Origin: a virus
IMG/VR virus record: IMGVR_UViG_3300031565_000067
Coordinates: 1 to 47,620 of that record
DNA: 47,620 nt
Direction: 5' to 3' (one strand)
Shown here: one piece after another, positions 29,674 through 36,876 of the stretch
How the letters are laid out: every line of letters starts with the position of its first letter
Position numbering within the stretch: position 1 is the stretch's first letter
Translations under genes and position numbers: made by a program
The notes under the pieces: model-generated
What the model was told of the DNA's origin: nothing
Database searches by the model: none
Seen by the model: the letters and a program-made list of their open reading frames with translations, nothing else

Positions 29674-29922
29674 ATGAAGGAAGCAGAGGAAGGTGAGCAC
29701 AGGAACGCCTTCGAGCGGCTCTATCGGGAGAACCTCTCCTTGGCGCCGATGGCGCAGATCAACGCTCCGCTCGTCTGGCACCCGGCAAGCCGCTCGTGGC
29801 GTTGGCGGGGCCGCGACGGCTATCCCCTCCGGAAGCACTACGACTGCGCCAAGAACCTTGCTTCTCCACTGTCTGGCTGCCACCATCGTTCCCGTCCCGC
29901 CGATAGCACCCGGCCCGTCTGA
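29674..29922 (+). CDS. Small hypothetical protein, last gene of the early operon
   Basis: 82 residues; TGAGGAG lies eight bases before the ATG at 29674. The sequence EGEHRNAFERLYRENLSLAP and WHPASRSWRWRGRDGYPLRK looks like a genuine small protein, with Trp/Arg-rich centre. The last 164 bases are antisense to the tail of the serine-recombinase relative on the other strand. This marks where the rightward early and the leftward operons converge. Confidence 0.55.
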   Translation: MKEAEEGEHRNAFERLYRENLSLAPMAQINAPLVWHPASRSWRWRGRDGYPLRKHYDCAKNLASPLSGCHHRSRPADSTRPV

Positions 29923-30526
29923 GGATCCGCCGGATCGTGTTGGCCGCCCAGCGCCTCCCGCGCGGCGGTATCCCCTCTTTCTCCAGCATGCGGACAATAT
30001 CTGTGAGTCCCAACCCGTCCTTGTGCCACTGGATGCAGGCGCTGATGACGGCCTGCTCCTCGGGGTCGCGGATCAGGACGTGGCGCGTGGGGTGGCGCGC
30101 GTACCCGTAGGGTGTGCGGTCAATGGCCCGGTCGTAGCCGAACTCTCTCCCTGCCTCTTTGATGCCGGTCCGCAGGGCCCGCAAACATCTTGCCACGTCC
30201 CCGGACGTTTCGGGGAAGGCATGCGAGCCATTTCTGAGGAAGGCCACGGACGCCTTGCGGTGGGCCAGCTCGATGGCCAGGCCTTGGGCCGCCGGGGAGC
30301 CGCGCGGGGCCAGGGCCTCAGGTGTCTCGGCCAGGAGCAGGTAGCTGGGGCGCAGCGCGGCGATGGCCCGGCAAAGTCCTGGCAGGTAGTTGTCCGGTGG
30401 TGGTGGCTGGTCGTCGCCGTAGGTGGCAAGAATCTCCACGGCGTTCTGCTCGGCCAGGTCAACGAGGTCGTTGGCCAGGGGGCCGGCGTCGGGGGCGGCC
30501 CCGAGGTACGCGATGGCGGAGCGCAT
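29759..30526 (-). CDS. Serine-recombinase relative lacking catalytic residues
   Basis: 255 residues; AAAAGGAG lies nine bases upstream of the ATG at 30526. Residues 1-100 keep the outline of a resolvase domain (AIAYLGAAP, LVDLAEQNAVEILATYGD, LCRAIAALRPSYLLLAETPE), but the usual YxRVSxxxQ reads YLGAAPDAG, so the Arg and nucleophilic Ser are gone, and the LxRLSR segment reads AETPEALAP. Residues about 128-204 are a good recombinase DNA-binding domain (RTPYGYARH, EQAVISACIQWHKDGLGL, NTIRRILRR). It probably binds DNA without cutting, as a regulator or decoy. It ends the leftward operon. Confidence 0.7.
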   Translation of the reverse strand: MRSAIAYLGAAPDAGPLANDLVDLAEQNAVEILATYGDDQPPPPDNYLPGLCRAIAALRPSYLLLAETPEALAPRGSPAAQGLAIELAHRKASVAFLRNGSHAFPETSGDVARCLRALRTGIKEAGREFGYDRAIDRTPYGYARHPTRHVLIRDPEEQAVISACIQWHKDGLGLTDIVRMLEKEGIPPRGRRWAANTIRRILRRAGCYRRDGNDGGSQTVEKQGSWRSRSASGGDSRRGPANATSGLPGARRAER

Positions 30527-30541: not shown

Positions 30542-30880
30542 TTACACGAATCGGGGTGGCGGTAGCGGGATAGGTTCGTGCTGCGGGCGCCAAAGATGCA
30601 GGCAGAACGGATGAAGATTCTTGTAGACAGAGCGTGGCGGGTGAAGCTGCATGACAGCCTCGTCCGGCCTAAAGAACACTTCCTTGACAAAAGCCATTTC
30701 GTCCCATGTCGGGCACCGGTCGGCTAGGGAAACCGAAACGTGGTCCCAGTCTCCGCCCCATGAGGCGATGATCCGTAGCGTTGATCCTGTGGGGCCGCAC
30801 ATGGTCGCAACAATCCCATCCGGGCCGGCGTTGAGTGGGATCAGCAGTCTGCATTTGGACAGGAACAGAGGCGAGTGCAT
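30542..30880 (-). CDS. Phage DUF7694-like protein
   Basis: 112 residues. I prefer the ATG at 30880, preceded by GAAAGGAAGG, over a TTG at 30901. The core WDHVSVSLADRCPTWDEMAF, then KEVFFRPDEAVMQLHPPRS and CLHLWRP matches a conserved small phage family with an HVSVS-type strand, a PTWDEM helix and a QLHPPxS loop, which I believe is DUF7694. It is common in phage accessory regions, but its biochemical role is unknown. Confidence 0.75.
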   Translation of the reverse strand: MHSPLFLSKCRLLIPLNAGPDGIVATMCGPTGSTLRIIASWGGDWDHVSVSLADRCPTWDEMAFVKEVFFRPDEAVMQLHPPRSVYKNLHPFCLHLWRPQHEPIPLPPPRFV

Positions 30881-30893
30881 GGGGGCCTTCCTT

Positions 30894-31247
30894 TCAGGCA
30901 AAGAGGACTCCCGCGGGCCGCTTCCAGGCCGGCACGGGCGCCAGCTCTGTGATCCGCGCCTGGCCTCGGCGCCTCGGGCGCGGCTTGGCCTTGCGCCGGC
31001 TCTTCGCCGGCGGGGGCGGCGGCGGGGCCGCGTAGCACACGGTCAGGTCAGGCACGGCATGGAGCTGCGCCGATACCCAGTCGTCGTTGACGTAGGCGGT
31101 TTGCAGATCGGGTCGGAAACGCGCGAGGGTTTCGCCCGTCTCAACGTCCTGGTACACGACGGCCGGGCCGTCTCGCCGCTTGGCCGTCAGCCGGAGCGCC
31201 CCGTCAACGGCCTCGGCAATCTCCCGTTGGAGCGGCGTGAGTCGCAT
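30894..31247 (-). CDS. Hypothetical protein with Pro-run and basic tail
   Basis: 117 residues; CAGGAGGCCCG lies upstream of the ATG at 31247, one of five leftward genes with this leader. Residues 1-70 are a helical then beta unit (TPLQREIAEAVDGALRL, VVYQDVETGETLARFRPD). A run of seven prolines at about 78-84 leads into a Lys/Arg-rich stretch (KSRRKAKPRPRRRGQARI), suggesting nucleic-acid contact. No named domain. Confidence 0.65.
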   Translation of the reverse strand: MRLTPLQREIAEAVDGALRLTAKRRDGPAVVYQDVETGETLARFRPDLQTAYVNDDWVSAQLHAVPDLTVCYAAPPPPPPAKSRRKAKPRPRRRGQARITELAPVPAWKRPAGVLFA

Positions 31248-32282: not shown

Positions 32283-32314
32283 TGTAGCGGGATGCTACAT
32301 AGTGCACTGCTATG
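32283..32314. repeat. Two nested inverted repeats between leftward genes
   Basis: TGTAGC and GCTACA (32283-32299, five-base loop), and CATAG with CTATG (32298-32314, around an AGTGCACT palindrome), occupy the end of the VWA gene and the start of the following gap. They could be an operator, attenuator or processing site between the MoxR/VWA block and the small-gene block. Confidence 0.45.
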
Positions 32315-33737
32315 CTTCCTGCATTCTGAGGGTGTCGCCAAAGGGCGCGATTTCGTCGGTCGTGCATACCCAAAGGGTCGGGTAGTCTGGGGCCTGGTCG
32401 GGGAAACTGCCGTACAGGTCGGTCAAGTAGATCAGTGCGGCGGGGGGGCCGTCGGGGTCGGCGTCGAGCGCGGCGAACACCGGCCGGAAGTCTGTACCTC
32501 CTCCGCCGGGCGTCTTATCGGGCCGCCACGGGCGGTCCTCGGGGGCTAGGTGGTCTATCCTGTGGACCTGGGCATCACAGTACAGAACGGTCAAGGCAAG
32601 GTCGGGGAAGCTCAAAACCGCGTCAAGCTCCTCAGCGAATCGGCCTTGGGTCTGCGGGTCCATGCAGCTGCCAGAAGTGTCAACGGCAAGGGCGATGGTC
32701 AAGCGCTCGGAGCGAAGCGACGGCATGCAGAAACCCGTATGGGCGTATCGGGGATTCGGGCGGGTGCGGTCCCAGTCGTTGCGGGCGGTGCGGTCTACGA
32801 ATTCGGCTAGGATGGTGCGCCAGTCTAGGGGGGGGTGTTCAAGCTCCTCGATCAAGAGTTTGACGCCGGCGGGCATGAACCCTTGGCCCCGGGCCGCGTG
32901 GGCTGCCTGAAGGATAAGCTGCTGCTCCTCGGCGCGGGCCGCGGGGCTGTCGTCGGGGGCGTCGAGAACGGCGCCCATGCCGTAGGGGTCGGGGGCCTCC
33001 TCGGGCGGGCCGTGCTGGTCGGGCTGCTCCTCGCCGGGGGCGTCGGTGTCCTGGGGGCTGCTGGGGCCGTCTGCGGCGTCGTCTGCGGGGCTGTCGGCGC
33101 CGTCCTGGTCGTCCTGGCCTTGCGTCTCGTCGTCGGCGTCCTGGGGGCCGTCCTGGTCGTCTGACTCTCCTGACCCGTCGTTGTCGGGTGTCTGCTCCTC
33201 GTCCTGCTTGGTGTCGTCCTGGTCGGGCTGGCCCTCCTCGGAGTCGTCCTGGGGGCCGGCGCCGTCCTGGGGCGTCTGCTCGGCGTCGGGGTCGGGCTGC
33301 TGCTCCTCGTCGGAGGGCTGCTGCCGGAGCAAGCTGTAAAGCTGCTCGGCGCTCTTGCCGCGGGCCGCGGCGAGTAGATCGGCGGGGGCGTCGTTGTCGG
33401 GAAGCTCAAACCCTGAGTCGATCGTGTCGTGGTAGATCGCTAGGTCGGCGGCCTTGTTCCAGTCGTCGGGGCTGCGCTCTGCTCGGCGGCGCTGGTGTTC
33501 GTTGACGATGTGCAAAACCTCGTGGACCCACAAGCCTTTCAAGGCGCTGTCGGTCTGCTCCTGAATCCAAGTGGGGTTGTACCATAGGTGCTTACCCTCG
33601 GTTGCCGCGGTCGGCAGTCCTGGGGCCTCGGCGAGCTCAAGGTGCAAGGCGCGGTGGGCAAAGAACGGGGCCTGCCAAAGCATCTGCGTTCGTGCCTTGA
33701 TCAATCTGTCTCGGGCTGGGGCCTTCGTCGTCGGCAT
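32310..33737 (-). CDS. Metallopeptidase-like + VWA protein (MoxR partner)
   Basis: 475 residues; ACGAGGAG precedes the ATG at 33737. Residues about 1-115 carry HEVLH at 72-76 and H81, the zinc-peptidase-like motif of the DUF2201 group. Residues about 140-270 are an Asp/Gln/Glu/Pro-rich disordered linker. Residues about 345-475 are a VWA domain with a complete metal site: D353-x-S-x-S357 (DTSGS), T415 (GGTD) and D440 (YLTDLYG). The same operon encodes a MoxR-type ATPase, the usual partner of such proteins. Such pairs remodel or activate protein complexes; the phage target is unknown. Confidence 0.85.
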   Translation of the reverse strand: MPTTKAPARDRLIKARTQMLWQAPFFAHRALHLELAEAPGLPTAATEGKHLWYNPTWIQEQTDSALKGLWVHEVLHIVNEHQRRRAERSPDDWNKAADLAIYHDTIDSGFELPDNDAPADLLAAARGKSAEQLYSLLRQQPSDEEQQPDPDAEQTPQDGAGPQDDSEEGQPDQDDTKQDEEQTPDNDGSGESDDQDGPQDADDETQGQDDQDGADSPADDAADGPSSPQDTDAPGEEQPDQHGPPEEAPDPYGMGAVLDAPDDSPAARAEEQQLILQAAHAARGQGFMPAGVKLLIEELEHPPLDWRTILAEFVDRTARNDWDRTRPNPRYAHTGFCMPSLRSERLTIALAVDTSGSCMDPQTQGRFAEELDAVLSFPDLALTVLYCDAQVHRIDHLAPEDRPWRPDKTPGGGGTDFRPVFAALDADPDGPPAALIYLTDLYGSFPDQAPDYPTLWVCTTDEIAPFGDTLRMQEA

Positions 33738-33783
33738 TGGGTCTGCTCCTCGTGCTGGGCGTCCTGGGGGCGGCCGCTAGCGC

Positions 33784-33807
33784 GGCGCCGGGCCTCTGAC
33801 CGGCGCC
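33784..33807. repeat. 8-bp perfect inverted repeat between leftward genes
   Basis: GGCGCCGG (33784-33791) and CCGGCGCC (33800-33807) with an eight-base loop lie in the 88-base gap between the helical protein and the VWA gene. No T-run follows in the leftward direction, so it is more likely an RNA processing or attenuation element than a terminator. Confidence 0.45.
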
Positions 33808-33825
33808 GGGGCTGGGGGCCGGGCC

Positions 33826-34689
33826 TCAGAACGCGCCGGCGTACTGGGCCGCGACCTTTGCGAGTCGGTCGGCGTTCTGGGCCGCCGTCTTGCGCCAGAC
33901 TCGGCCGGCGCGGAGTGCTTGCGGGTCCTGCTGTCCGATGAGCTGGTCCGCATCGGCGGCGAGTTGGTTCAAGCGCGCGTCGTTGGTCAAGTTCAACTTC
34001 GGGATGATGGCGGCAAGGTCCCGGATGTTCTGAATGAGGGAATCCCGGAAGATCGCGCCGTCGGTCCCTAGGCGCTCGGCCGCGTGGGCTAGGGCGTCTC
34101 GCAGTCGGGCGTACAGGTCACATACCGCGTCGGCGACGGCTGCGGTGGTCTGCGCTTCAATGTCCTGCCGGATGGCGTCGGCGTCTGCTTGGGCAAGGTC
34201 AACGCGGAAGTCTTGACCCGTGGGGAGGGGAGCGAAGTGAATCCCCATGGAGAACCGGCCGCGGACCTCCTCCGGCGGCGGGTAGTCGGCCTTGTTGAAC
34301 ATGCCGTTGAGTCGGTGTTCGGCGGTGTCCAGCAGTCCGGGGTACTGGGCTGTGAATCGGTCGGCGAGTCGGTCGTGTTCGGCAATCGCCTTGCTGGTGT
34401 AGTCGGCAAGGTCACGGAAAGCCGCGGCGGGCAGGATCCGGGCACCCTCATCTTGCCATGGGAGAGTCAAGCTGTAGAATCTGCCGCGGACCTCGTTGTT
34501 GTGCTTCTCGAGGGGCCGCAAGGCTTCCTTGGGGATGAGGAGTTTGTTCCAACGGCCGGCGTCGGGGTCGGCGCTGTACTCCTCGGTGACGTGCTGGGTG
34601 ATCTTCTTGTCCAGTCGGCGGGCGGTCCATTGCCGAATCGTGAGTCGCGCCAGCATGGCCTTGCTGGTCAAGCCGTTCGTGGAACTCAT
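33826..34689 (-). CDS. Phage-widespread helical protein linking MoxR and VWA genes
   Basis: 287 residues; the start is fixed by CAGGAGGCCCG upstream of the ATG at 34689. The N-terminus (KAMLARLTIRQWTARRLDKK, ITQHVTEEY), the FYSLTLPWQDEGARILPAAA segment, RLNGMFNKADYPPPEEVRGR, and PLPTGQDFRVDL followed by long helices match a family I know from many unrelated phages, where it sits beside MoxR and VWA genes (possibly DUF3150; the name should be verified). It is mostly helical and likely the third component of the complex. No catalytic motif is seen. Confidence 0.7.
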   Translation of the reverse strand: MSSTNGLTSKAMLARLTIRQWTARRLDKKITQHVTEEYSADPDAGRWNKLLIPKEALRPLEKHNNEVRGRFYSLTLPWQDEGARILPAAAFRDLADYTSKAIAEHDRLADRFTAQYPGLLDTAEHRLNGMFNKADYPPPEEVRGRFSMGIHFAPLPTGQDFRVDLAQADADAIRQDIEAQTTAAVADAVCDLYARLRDALAHAAERLGTDGAIFRDSLIQNIRDLAAIIPKLNLTNDARLNQLAADADQLIGQQDPQALRAGRVWRKTAAQNADRLAKVAAQYAGAF

Positions 34690-34706
34690 CGGTCGGGCCT
34701 CCTGTC

Positions 34707-35786
34707 TCACACGTAAAGTGCTTGGTGGGTGGTGCAGTGGGTGATATAGGCGCGGGTCTGTGCAAAATCTCCCTTCGGTCCTCCGCTGTGGTGTAGGCTG
34801 CTCTGGACCATGAGTACTCCTAGTTCTGCGCCGTCGTCCTGGATCAAGCGGTCGGCGAGGGTGACGATCGCCGGGGCGGTCGTCCTGGTGGCGCGGGCCG
34901 CGATCGCCGTCGCGAAAGCCCATCGGGCCGCGATGTTGTCTCGGGGCGGGATGGGCGCCGTGTTGGGGTGTGCGAGTGCGGCGTCAAGGTCGGGCAGGTC
35001 GCGCCAGACCCTGCAGAAGGCGCAGAACTCGGTTGCGAAAGCCTGGCCGGCTATGCCGGCGAGTCGGGTGAACATCTGCGCGTCGTCTGCTCCTCGGGCA
35101 GTCAAGCGCTTGTAAGCTCGGCCGGCGGCGGCGATCGTCCTGGGCTGGGCGCTGGTCACGATGTCTGCTGAGGCGGTCCATTCCTCGAGTAGGTTGGGGC
35201 GGTACCTGGCGAATGCGACAAGCTCAAGGGGCTGGTCGTGGTGGATCGCCCACTGGGACCATTCCGCAGCGCTGACGATCAGTTCGTAGATTCCGCCAAG
35301 GAACCTGGTCTTGACAGGCTCGAGAATCGTCTGCACTGCGGCGCGGTCGGCGCGGCGGTTGGTGCAGGCGATGAATCGGACGTGCGGTGACAGTCGGTGG
35401 CCATTGCAAGCGCGGGATAGCAGCAGTTGCATGTAGGCTGCTTGGGTCTGCGGCGGGGCCTGTCCGAGGTCGTCCAGCATCCAGACGGTCAAGCGCTCGG
35501 CGTGAATGGCCTTGTACAGCACCCCAAAGGGCAGGAAGTCGGCGCGGTCCTCGGTCGCGCGGAACGGTAAGCCGGCGGGCGTGGTGGGGTCCTCTACCAC
35601 GGGATGACTCAACAGCAAGTCGGCGTCGAGCTGCGCGGCGACGTCGAGCGCCAGTTCGGTCTTGCCGATACCGGGCCGTCCGACGATCAAAGCGGGTTCC
35701 TGCGCTTCAATGGCGTCGATCAGCATCGGGCGGAGCTGGGCGTGAGTCACTTGCGGGGCCTGGGCGGTCGTCGTGGGGCTGGTCAT
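34707..35786 (-). CDS. MoxR-type AAA+ ATPase
   Basis: 359 residues; CAGGAGGCCCG lies upstream of the ATG at 35786, which overlaps the previous stop by four bases. Walker A is GRPGIGKT at 36-43, Walker B VWMLDDLGQA at 101-110, sensor 1 ACTNR at 140-144, and an arginine-finger candidate is R161 (VKTRFLGG). The insertion-rich layout between Walker A and B is of the MoxR/helix-2-insert type. It would use ATP to remodel a target with the VWA protein, as metal-linked chaperone pairs do. Cytoplasmic location is expected. Confidence 0.85.
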   Translation of the reverse strand: MTSPTTTAQAPQVTHAQLRPMLIDAIEAQEPALIVGRPGIGKTELALDVAAQLDADLLLSHPVVEDPTTPAGLPFRATEDRADFLPFGVLYKAIHAERLTVWMLDDLGQAPPQTQAAYMQLLLSRACNGHRLSPHVRFIACTNRRADRAAVQTILEPVKTRFLGGIYELIVSAAEWSQWAIHHDQPLELVAFARYRPNLLEEWTASADIVTSAQPRTIAAAGRAYKRLTARGADDAQMFTRLAGIAGQAFATEFCAFCRVWRDLPDLDAALAHPNTAPIPPRDNIAARWAFATAIAARATRTTAPAIVTLADRLIQDDGAELGVLMVQSSLHHSGGPKGDFAQTRAYITHCTTHQALYV

Positions 35787-35977
35787 CTGGCGGGCCTCCT
35801 GGGCTGGTTCGGCCAGTCGCCACGGTGGGCGCGGTCAAGGGCCGCGGCAATCTCCTCGCGCGGCGTCGAGCGGAGCAAGGCGCGGACCGCCAGGATCAGC
35901 GGGTCCGGGTGGTCCTGGTCCTTGGGGCTAGAGCCGGCAAAGTCGAGCGTGCCGGCGGCGCTCCTGTGCTGCAGCAT
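35783..35977 (-). CDS. Small first gene of the leftward operon
   Basis: 64 residues; CAGGAGGCCCG lies upstream of the ATG at 35977 and the stop overlaps the MoxR start (ATGA). The C-terminal half (DPLILAVRALLRSTPREEIA, AALDRAHRGDW) is helical and could bind the ATPase. Coupled translation suggests a stoichiometric partner or regulator. No family recognised. Confidence 0.6.
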   Translation of the reverse strand: MLQHRSAAGTLDFAGSSPKDQDHPDPLILAVRALLRSTPREEIAAALDRAHRGDWPNQPRRPAR

Positions 35978-36025
35978 CGGTCGGGCCTCCTGAGCTGCGG
36001 TGTCGGGCCTCTCCCCTGTGATCGT

Positions 36026-36054
36026 ATTCTACCACGGTTATTACGACGTGTCAA
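36026..36054 (-). promoter_or_regulatory. Strong promoter of the leftward MoxR/VWA operon
   Basis: Read leftward, TTGACA (36049-36054), a 17-bp spacer and TAGAAT (36026-36031) give one mismatch to consensus in the -10 box. The predicted start is about 36019, some 40 bases before the first gene. It is the only strong leftward promoter found upstream of the eleven consecutive leftward genes. Confidence 0.8.
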
Positions 36055-36766
36055 GTAAAATGTCCCTGGCCCGCGTTGTTTAGTGGCGTATTCTCGGGGA
36101 GGGCGACTGCGGCGCGGGCCTCTGTACCCTGACTCATGGGTGTACTCTCATGGTGTGTCCCTGTCTGTGTGGGGGCCCTGGCGCCGGGGCCTCTGCTGTC
36201 TGCGGTCCTCTGCTCCTGGCTGCAAGGGCCTGTGCTGTGTCTCAAGGGTCCTCCTCCGGCTGCTCCTCCTCGAGCTGTTGTCGGGCCTTGGACCTGTATC
36301 AGATGGTCCTATTGGTGCGGGAATCGGGGCGTGGAGGTCGGCGTCCGGCGTCGAGCGGGGCCGCCGGCGAGGGGGGCCCTGGGCGGTCGGGGCCTCGGGG
36401 CGTCTCGTGTCCGGCTGTTGTGGGGTGTTGGGCGTGGTGTACCAGATTGGCTATCTGGTGTCTTGGTCTGGCTGCTCCTTGGCTTAGGGCGAGCGGTGAC
36501 AGCGGGCCGCCAGTCTCGGGGGCCTGGGCGGCGTCGAGCTGGCCGCGGGCCGCCGTGGGCGCTCGGTGGCGCGGGCGTGGGCGGGCAGTCGCGGTCGCGT
36601 GGGGGGCGGGTGGGGGCGACGTGGGCGGCGGCGGTGAGGGGGGGGGGGAGGGCCGGAGACCGGTGGCCTCGATGCCCCCCCCTTGATGCGTCTGCGCGTG
36701 GGGCAAGTTTTTTTGAGGGGGTTGGGGTGGTGGTGAGTGTGATACGCTGGCTTTCGGAAAATGTGC
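36055..36766. other. Gene-free, A-poor and G-rich region between divergent promoters
   Basis: This 0.7-kb stretch has no convincing gene. On the + strand A is very rare (one A in 36361-36420, two in 36181-36240). It contains a G-quadruplex motif of four G-runs (36601-36625), an 11-G run (36638-36648) facing an 8-C run (36675-36682), and a T7 tract (36708-36714). Frames that cross it are Gly/Arg/Pro-rich and look non-coding. Because it lies just upstream of the packaging genes, it is a reasonable candidate for a packaging or replication site, but no such site is proven. Confidence 0.6.
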
Positions 36767-36794
36767 TTGACAGGTCGGGAAGTTGTGGTATAAA
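36767..36794 (+). promoter_or_regulatory. Rightward late promoter before the packaging genes
   Basis: TTGACA (36767-36772), a 16-bp spacer and TATAAA (36789-36794) form a strong promoter with a predicted start near 36801 and a leader of about 75 bases. It would drive the packaging, head and (through the window edge) tail genes. No operator-like palindrome is obvious in it. Confidence 0.8.
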
Positions 36795-36876
36795 GAGGGT
36801 GTTGTCTGTGATTCTGGACGTGAACTGGTCTGGAGTCAGGCATGTCGGACAGGAAGGGAGCGAAGGGATGTGAGCG

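Follow-up and report, generated by a model that had tools for sequence, protein, structure and literature searches.

What do the genes of a compact phage operon build together, and on what does the product act? The question is raised by IMG/VR virus record IMGVR_UViG_3300031565_000067, all 47,620 nucleotides of which form the window analysed here. The operon was re-read directly at positions 36054-32310 on the minus strand. Its four open reading frames (ORFs) lie where an earlier note on this DNA had placed them: a 64-residue ORF (35977-35783), a MoxR-like AAA+ ATPase of 359 residues (35786-34707), a mostly helical protein of 287 residues (34689-33826) and a 475-residue protein with a metallopeptidase and a VWA domain (33737-32310). 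That note had proposed a three- or four-part machine. The present comparison of sequences indicates that the ATPase, the VWA protein and the helical protein, a divergent relative of the domain of unknown function (DUF) DUF3150, very probably form one three-part complex. Action at the stage of DNA metabolism or host takeover is slightly favoured, and the explanation as a whole, one ATPase-DUF3150-VWA complex that remodels or cuts a target at that stage, is given about an even chance.

Linkage of the three genes in viral genomes

Related loci in IMG/VR were searched with three kinds of seeds: DUF3150 (P0002 alone, or an alignment), the VWA protein and the ATPase. When the DUF3150 alignment was the seed, all three genes were present in 79 of 80 viral loci, a set that overlaps partly with an earlier one; in the single exception the DUF3150 gene lies at a contig edge. 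The genes of 78 of these 79 trios are on one strand, and four gene orders occur. P0002 alone retrieved 13 loci, of which 10 are full trios; the other 3 have the DUF3150 and VWA genes but lack an ATPase, on contigs of 4-10 kb with DUF3150 at the extreme edge. The control, 85 random viral stretches amounting to 806 kb, contained no DUF3150 gene and only one VWA gene, which adjoins an ATPase. Rare co-occurrence would have spoken against a shared machine according to the earlier note; the survey shows the opposite, with 79 of 80 loci against near-zero in random stretches.

With the VWA protein as seed, 76 of 80 viral loci held the ATPase-VWA pair, 27 of them together with DUF3150; with the ATPase as seed, 71 of 80 held it, 12 of them with DUF3150. 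Each of the 37 trios and 51 pairs in the first set, counted without redundancy, is encoded on a single strand, and the median distance from the DUF3150 frame to the open frame of a partner is 32 bases. Across 84 non-redundant trios, the pairwise distances of the three proteins are correlated (Mantel r 0.76-0.82, with no permutation above 0.23). The preservation of linkage through changes in gene order is a stronger argument than this correlation. Near-obligate linkage, conserved strand, correlated divergence and conserved motifs together lend strong support to a shared machine.

This support extends to three parts and not to four, since the 64-residue ORF has no independent homologue. Although it is the first gene of the operon and overlaps the ATPase gene by 4 bases (ATGA, the stop of the first and the start of the second), no family match was obtained for it in profile and family searches. 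Among all loci fetched, its sole match was in IMGVR_UViG_3300031566_000154 (39 kb). The 22.4 kb of that record that were compared are identical in DNA to window positions 22313-44689, and the record therefore does not count as an independent relative. A four-part machine including this orphan ORF was rejected as unsupported.

Loci with the pair and without a recognised DUF3150 were searched for a remote version of it, and none was detected: the best probability was 4% when 33 recurrent neighbour families were compared with the DUF3150 profile by hhalign. In 24 of 51 such loci phrog_15894 is found, typically just outside the pair (L175:12839-13501), and in 8 of 51 phrog_1965 is found, for example in the slot between both genes (L108:5538-6233). 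Both families are absent from all 37 DUF3150 loci; they may be alternative third subunits, or merely clade markers. None of the three genes was seen in 8 contigs that carry relatives of the window terminase at 26-32% identity, mostly short fragments totalling 79 kb.

Properties of the three proteins

Hidden Markov model searches, which the earlier note had called for, identified the ATPase and the VWA protein directly, placed the helical protein at the family level only, and gave nothing for the 64-residue ORF. The ATPase matches phrog_1297 (E 1e-47) and stands just under the Pfam cut-off for AAA_5 (E 4e-4, 20.9 bits against a cut-off of 22); the best solved match of its family profile is midasin (E 7.6e-25). 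Walker A (GRPGIGKT, residues 36-43, 35658..35681), Asn143 and the arginine finger Arg161 are intact in the window, and K42, N143 and R161 are invariant in the aligned viral homologues. Walker A and the arginine finger place the protein with the MoxR/AAA_5-type ATPases. The earlier description of an intact Walker A/B is thus correct for Walker A only. In Walker B (VWMLDD, residues 101-106, 35469..35486), residues 105-106 are D-D, where most relatives have D-E. This D-D occurs in 12 of 42 DUF3150-linked viral ATPases as compared with 1 of 111 other viral ATPases, and in the 12 DUF3150-linked loci it is mostly followed by [LIVF]GQA; the aligned sequences mark it as a subclade trait almost confined to DUF3150 loci. 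A catalytic Glu in Walker B is common in MoxR-VWA chaperone pairs and does not strictly define them.

A VWA partner with a complete metal-ion-dependent adhesion site (MIDAS) is encoded beside the ATPase, as expected of a MoxR-VWA pair. The 475-residue protein consists of DUF2201_N and DUF2201, with matches to PF13203 (E 1.6e-36, 126.7 bits, cut-off 23.2), PF09967 (E 8.6e-21, 74.8 bits, cut-off 26.4) and phrog_1314 (E 2.8e-74). The HNH or homing endonuclease reading suggested by the label of phrog_1314 was rejected, both Pfam matches being to metallopeptidase and VWA families, and a misleading annotation is thereby exposed. Proteins of this kind are mislabelled "HNH endonuclease" or "homing endonuclease" in many phage records, such as N4 gp25 and Paride_0139.

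The motif residues had been numbered exactly in the earlier note. HEVLH (H72-E73-V-L-H76) opens the zinc-peptidase motif HEVLHIVNEH (residues 72-81, 33495..33524), which includes an additional conserved His, H81. The MIDAS comprises DTSGS (residues 353-357, 32667..32681), Thr415 (32493..32495) and Asp440 (32418..32420). An acidic linker rich in D, E, Q and P (residues 141-262, 32952..33317) separates the two domains. In the AlphaFold2 model both domains are ordered and the linker is mostly disordered; the C-terminal part aligns with VWA structures over 147 residues (Z 13.6, root-mean-square deviation 2.5), and the N-terminal domain has faint sequence similarity to solved peptidase-type proteins (MJ1213, E 0.01; an M48 peptidase, E 0.03).

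Among 144 distinct viral homologues, D353, S355, S357, T415 and D440 are each present in all 144, as are H76 and D98; H72 and H81 are found in 143 and E73 in 142, and HExxH is retained in 142. These counts answer the earlier concern that the metal-site residues might prove not conserved. In 78 bacterial homologues the MIDAS is likewise invariant (D353, S355 and S357 in 78 of 78), whereas the Glu of HExxH is found in only 59. The peptidase site has therefore been retained in viruses, but some bacterial lineages manage with a form of the protein that lacks it. Maintenance of the catalytic residues by selection suggests target processing, and the DUF2201_N domain is reasonably likely to be an active peptidase.

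The helical protein of the window itself gave no match to PF11348 in a direct Pfam search at E 1, and it is accordingly described as a divergent DUF3150 relative and not as a Pfam member. Homology is established at the level of the family: 14 of 47 members match PF11348 (best E 3e-7), the family aligns with the canonical DUF3150 profile (hhalign 96.8%, E 3e-10), and the homologue in Synechococcus phage MinM2 is annotated as DUF3150. The AlphaFold2 model of this mostly helical protein has a predicted local distance difference test score of 95.3. DUF3150 is not mentioned in the literature searched, outside which most subscription papers lie, and it appears undescribed as a third subunit and without a described role in phages. 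A family of unknown function thus becomes a near-obligate third subunit of a defined module.

Stage of action and possible targets

Recurrent identified neighbours of the module encode DNA polymerase, exonuclease, helicase, primase, thymidylate synthase and ligase. No capsid or tail family is present among the 25 commonest neighbour families, and a terminase gene is near a few loci. The stage of action was inferred from these replication and nucleotide genes, from the middle transcription of the related N4 genes gp24/gp25 (PMC4193335) and from the presence of the module in plasmids.

The plasmids are instructive in this respect. A window-type DUF3150 relative is carried by 44 plasmids and a VWA relative by 61. 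The three genes follow one another directly in five of the six plasmids inspected (with a profile check of three); in the sixth, from Simplicispira, about 3.6 kb separate DUF3150 from the ATPase upstream of it. A PRTRC cassette precedes four of the six trios, conjugation genes follow immediately after two of these four, and one further trio is near a ParB gene. The PRTRC-linked trios are from four Burkholderiaceae plasmids.

Of the roles suggested in the earlier note, host shut-off and exclusion of other phages are possible ones; such carriage bears on the third, virion assembly or maturation. In jumbo phages, Iyer et al. (2021) described the MoxR ATPase paired with the peptidase-VWA protein and suggested a role in virion assembly (PMC7824862); the pair would act as chaperones and the peptidase domain would trim structural proteins. 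In agreement, the MoxR protein p618 of Acidianus two-tailed virus (ATV) is a component of the virion and interacts with virion proteins as well as with the VWA protein p892 (PMC4124505), and the gp24/gp25 homologues of some marine N4-like phages lie close to a second structural module, of the middle phase (PMC4193335). The trio, including the peptidase-VWA protein, is however also found on conjugative plasmids, which form no virions; many bacteria have the pair in their chromosomes, the neighbours are genes of DNA metabolism, and gp24/gp25 are middle transcripts. Assembly is therefore less likely, and we regard it as an improbable role here. Plasmid carriage also speaks against it as the general role of the pair that is core in N4-like phages.

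In the window, a strong, near-consensus sigma-70-like promoter precedes the operon (TTGACA-17-TAGAAT, first hexamer starting at 36054, minus strand, 36026..36054), with TG before the -10 hexamer and 11 of 12 matches; two promoter-like sites were found in a scan of 7.9 kb where 0.5 were expected. A ribosome-binding-like AGGAGGCCCG lies upstream of operon genes 1-3. Downstream, as far as 29759, a run of small ORFs continues on the same strand with a DUF7694 gene (30542-30901, E 1.7e-27) and a serine-recombinase-like gene (29759-30526, Pfam Recombinase E 3.8e-7). The plus strand of the rest of the window carries terminase, portal, head, methyltransferase and RusA genes, which identify the window as the whole or a large part of a tailed-phage genome. 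Between the divergent operons, about 0.8 kb (36055-36876) contains no assigned gene and has long C/G runs; it is probably a regulatory region.

The separate promoter, the strand opposite to the head genes and the serine-recombinase-like gene would suit a function in conflict between elements, in which the complex would remodel or cut one specific protein, either to shield the element or its host cell from other phages or to inactivate a host defence. The spread of the trio over phages and plasmids, the possible alternative third proteins in pair loci and the use of MoxR-VWA cores in predicted conflict systems (PMC7159879) point in the same direction. Nevertheless, the matches to defence families are weak P-loop ones to the ATPase only, and neither the DUF3150 protein nor the VWA protein was matched by PADLOC. 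The VMAP, effector and protease modules that belong to the conflict systems are all absent: the only VMAP-type match in the Pfam search was sub-threshold (E 0.06) and within the ATPase. The vWA-MoxR-VMAP ternary system was rejected, as the third component is a DUF3150 relative. Moreover, gp24/gp25 belong to the core genes of N4-like phages, where defence cargo would not usually be found. A conflict function is thus considered unlikely.

Bacterial genomes hold a sister branch of the module, also found in plasmids, in which canonical DUF3150 is combined with a NorD-like VWA protein and a CbbQ_C-type ATPase. Canonical DUF3150 was detected in 9 of 398 genomes sampled from one bacterial phylum, and the A5 alignment profile matched only its seed genome among the same 398. 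Seven full-length canonical loci have a NorD-like VWA gene in the region in 7 of 7 cases and a MoxR ATPase in 6 of 7. Many of the best chromosomal loci of the ATPase-VWA(peptidase) pair come from sulfur-oxidising bacteria. An unannotated N-terminal HExxH, followed by N-x-x-E-D in most, was found in 7 of 8 NorD-like VWA sequences from the canonical loci and pCAR1, two of them nearly identical (for example L267:25527-27341). The layout suggests that this peptidase-like domain may be homologous to DUF2201_N, which is not proven because only an insignificant secondary profile match was obtained. Phage, plasmid and chromosomal versions of the module are linked in this way.

The annotation of the sister VWA protein as NorD and its CbbQ_C-type ATPase recall chaperones that insert a cofactor into, or activate, one metal enzyme, such as NorQ-NorD, CobS-CobT and CbbQ-CbbO, and a NorQD structure is among the weak Foldseek matches of the VWA protein. 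Yet the neighbours that could be identified include no recurrent metal enzyme, and viruses retain the peptidase motif, so that a function of this type is very unlikely.

The complex favoured here would be made from its own operon and would couple a MoxR-type AAA+ ring to the VWA protein. By analogy with CbbQO, RavA-ViaA and ATV p618-p892, the MIDAS metal site may bind an acidic side chain belonging either to the ring or to a target. The target would probably be pulled or remodelled through ATP hydrolysis and then cut by the N-terminal zinc-peptidase domain. DUF3150, placed by exclusion, would be a dedicated third subunit, most likely an adaptor or scaffold that presents the target. The complex would most likely act on a host or element protein, during host takeover and the DNA metabolism of the element and not in virion assembly.

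Several observations weigh against this explanation. The window ATPase is without the usual catalytic Glu. HExxH is broken in two viral VWA proteins and lost, with the MIDAS kept, in the Sulfurovum-type chromosomal DUF2201 proteins (N-G..H), so peptidase activity is not universally needed. Fold searches with the DUF3150 model gave a best Foldseek E of 0.35 and, by VIA, generic helical-bundle matches only (best Z 10.2, nearly all to the C-terminal half). For this predicted model they are uninformative and do not prove a new fold; the adaptor function is consequently a guess. Shared phage descent may account for part of the correlated divergence. Tunturiibacter phage Tunturi_3 encodes a DUF3150-like protein (L003:4872-5831), yet neither an ATPase nor a VWA match was obtained anywhere in its 97.6 kb genome. 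Genomic context, finally, is weak evidence for the target.

A wider and more doubtful possibility is that the module represents an undescribed class of ATP-driven proteases or remodellers that phages share with conjugative plasmids and with integrating elements. Its target would be chosen by an exchangeable third subunit: DUF3150 in the trios, and perhaps phrog_1965 or phrog_15894 where only the pair is present. The class might serve host takeover or the clearing of a host or competitor protein.

Comparison with known systems

In RavA-ViaA and CbbQ-CbbO an ATPase ring and a MIDAS protein remodel jointly, and these pairs, together with NorQ-NorD, resemble the present module in combining a MoxR ring with a MIDAS VWA protein. 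Their targets are cellular, however, and no DUF3150 is known in them. Among viral systems, ATV p618 is likewise a MoxR ATPase bound and stimulated by a VWA protein (PMC4124505), but the ATV VWA protein has no peptidase domain (PMC7824862), and DUF3150 is not mentioned for p618-p892 or for the AAA-vWA pairs of haloarchaeal viruses (PMC4124505, PMC7911831).

The pair of the group 2.2 jumbo phages is closer, a MoxR ATPase adjoining a VWA protein whose N-terminal domain is a metallopeptidase (PMC7824862); it was described as a pair, whereas the window is a 47.6 kb record with DUF3150 as a dedicated third gene. N4 gp24 and gp25 match the ATPase and VWA profiles, are adjacent on one strand, and gp25 consists of DUF2201_N and DUF2201 (E 3e-87 and 1e-46), but no DUF3150 gene lies between or beside them. 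They are core genes in N4-like phages, of unknown function (PMC4193335). All three components are found in the IncP-7 plasmid pCAR1, where MoxR and VWA genes were noted and ORF100-103 are reported to be conserved in R478, Rts1, SXT and R391 (PMC2642839). The order ATPase-DUF3150-VWA is the same as in the window; the differences are a canonical DUF3150 (E 8e-92) and a NorD-like VWA protein of 604 residues that lacks the DUF2201 domains, though it has an N-terminal HExxH. The ATPase-VWA(peptidase) pair was thus already known, and what the present analysis adds is the DUF3150 third subunit and its near-obligate linkage to the pair across phages and plasmids.

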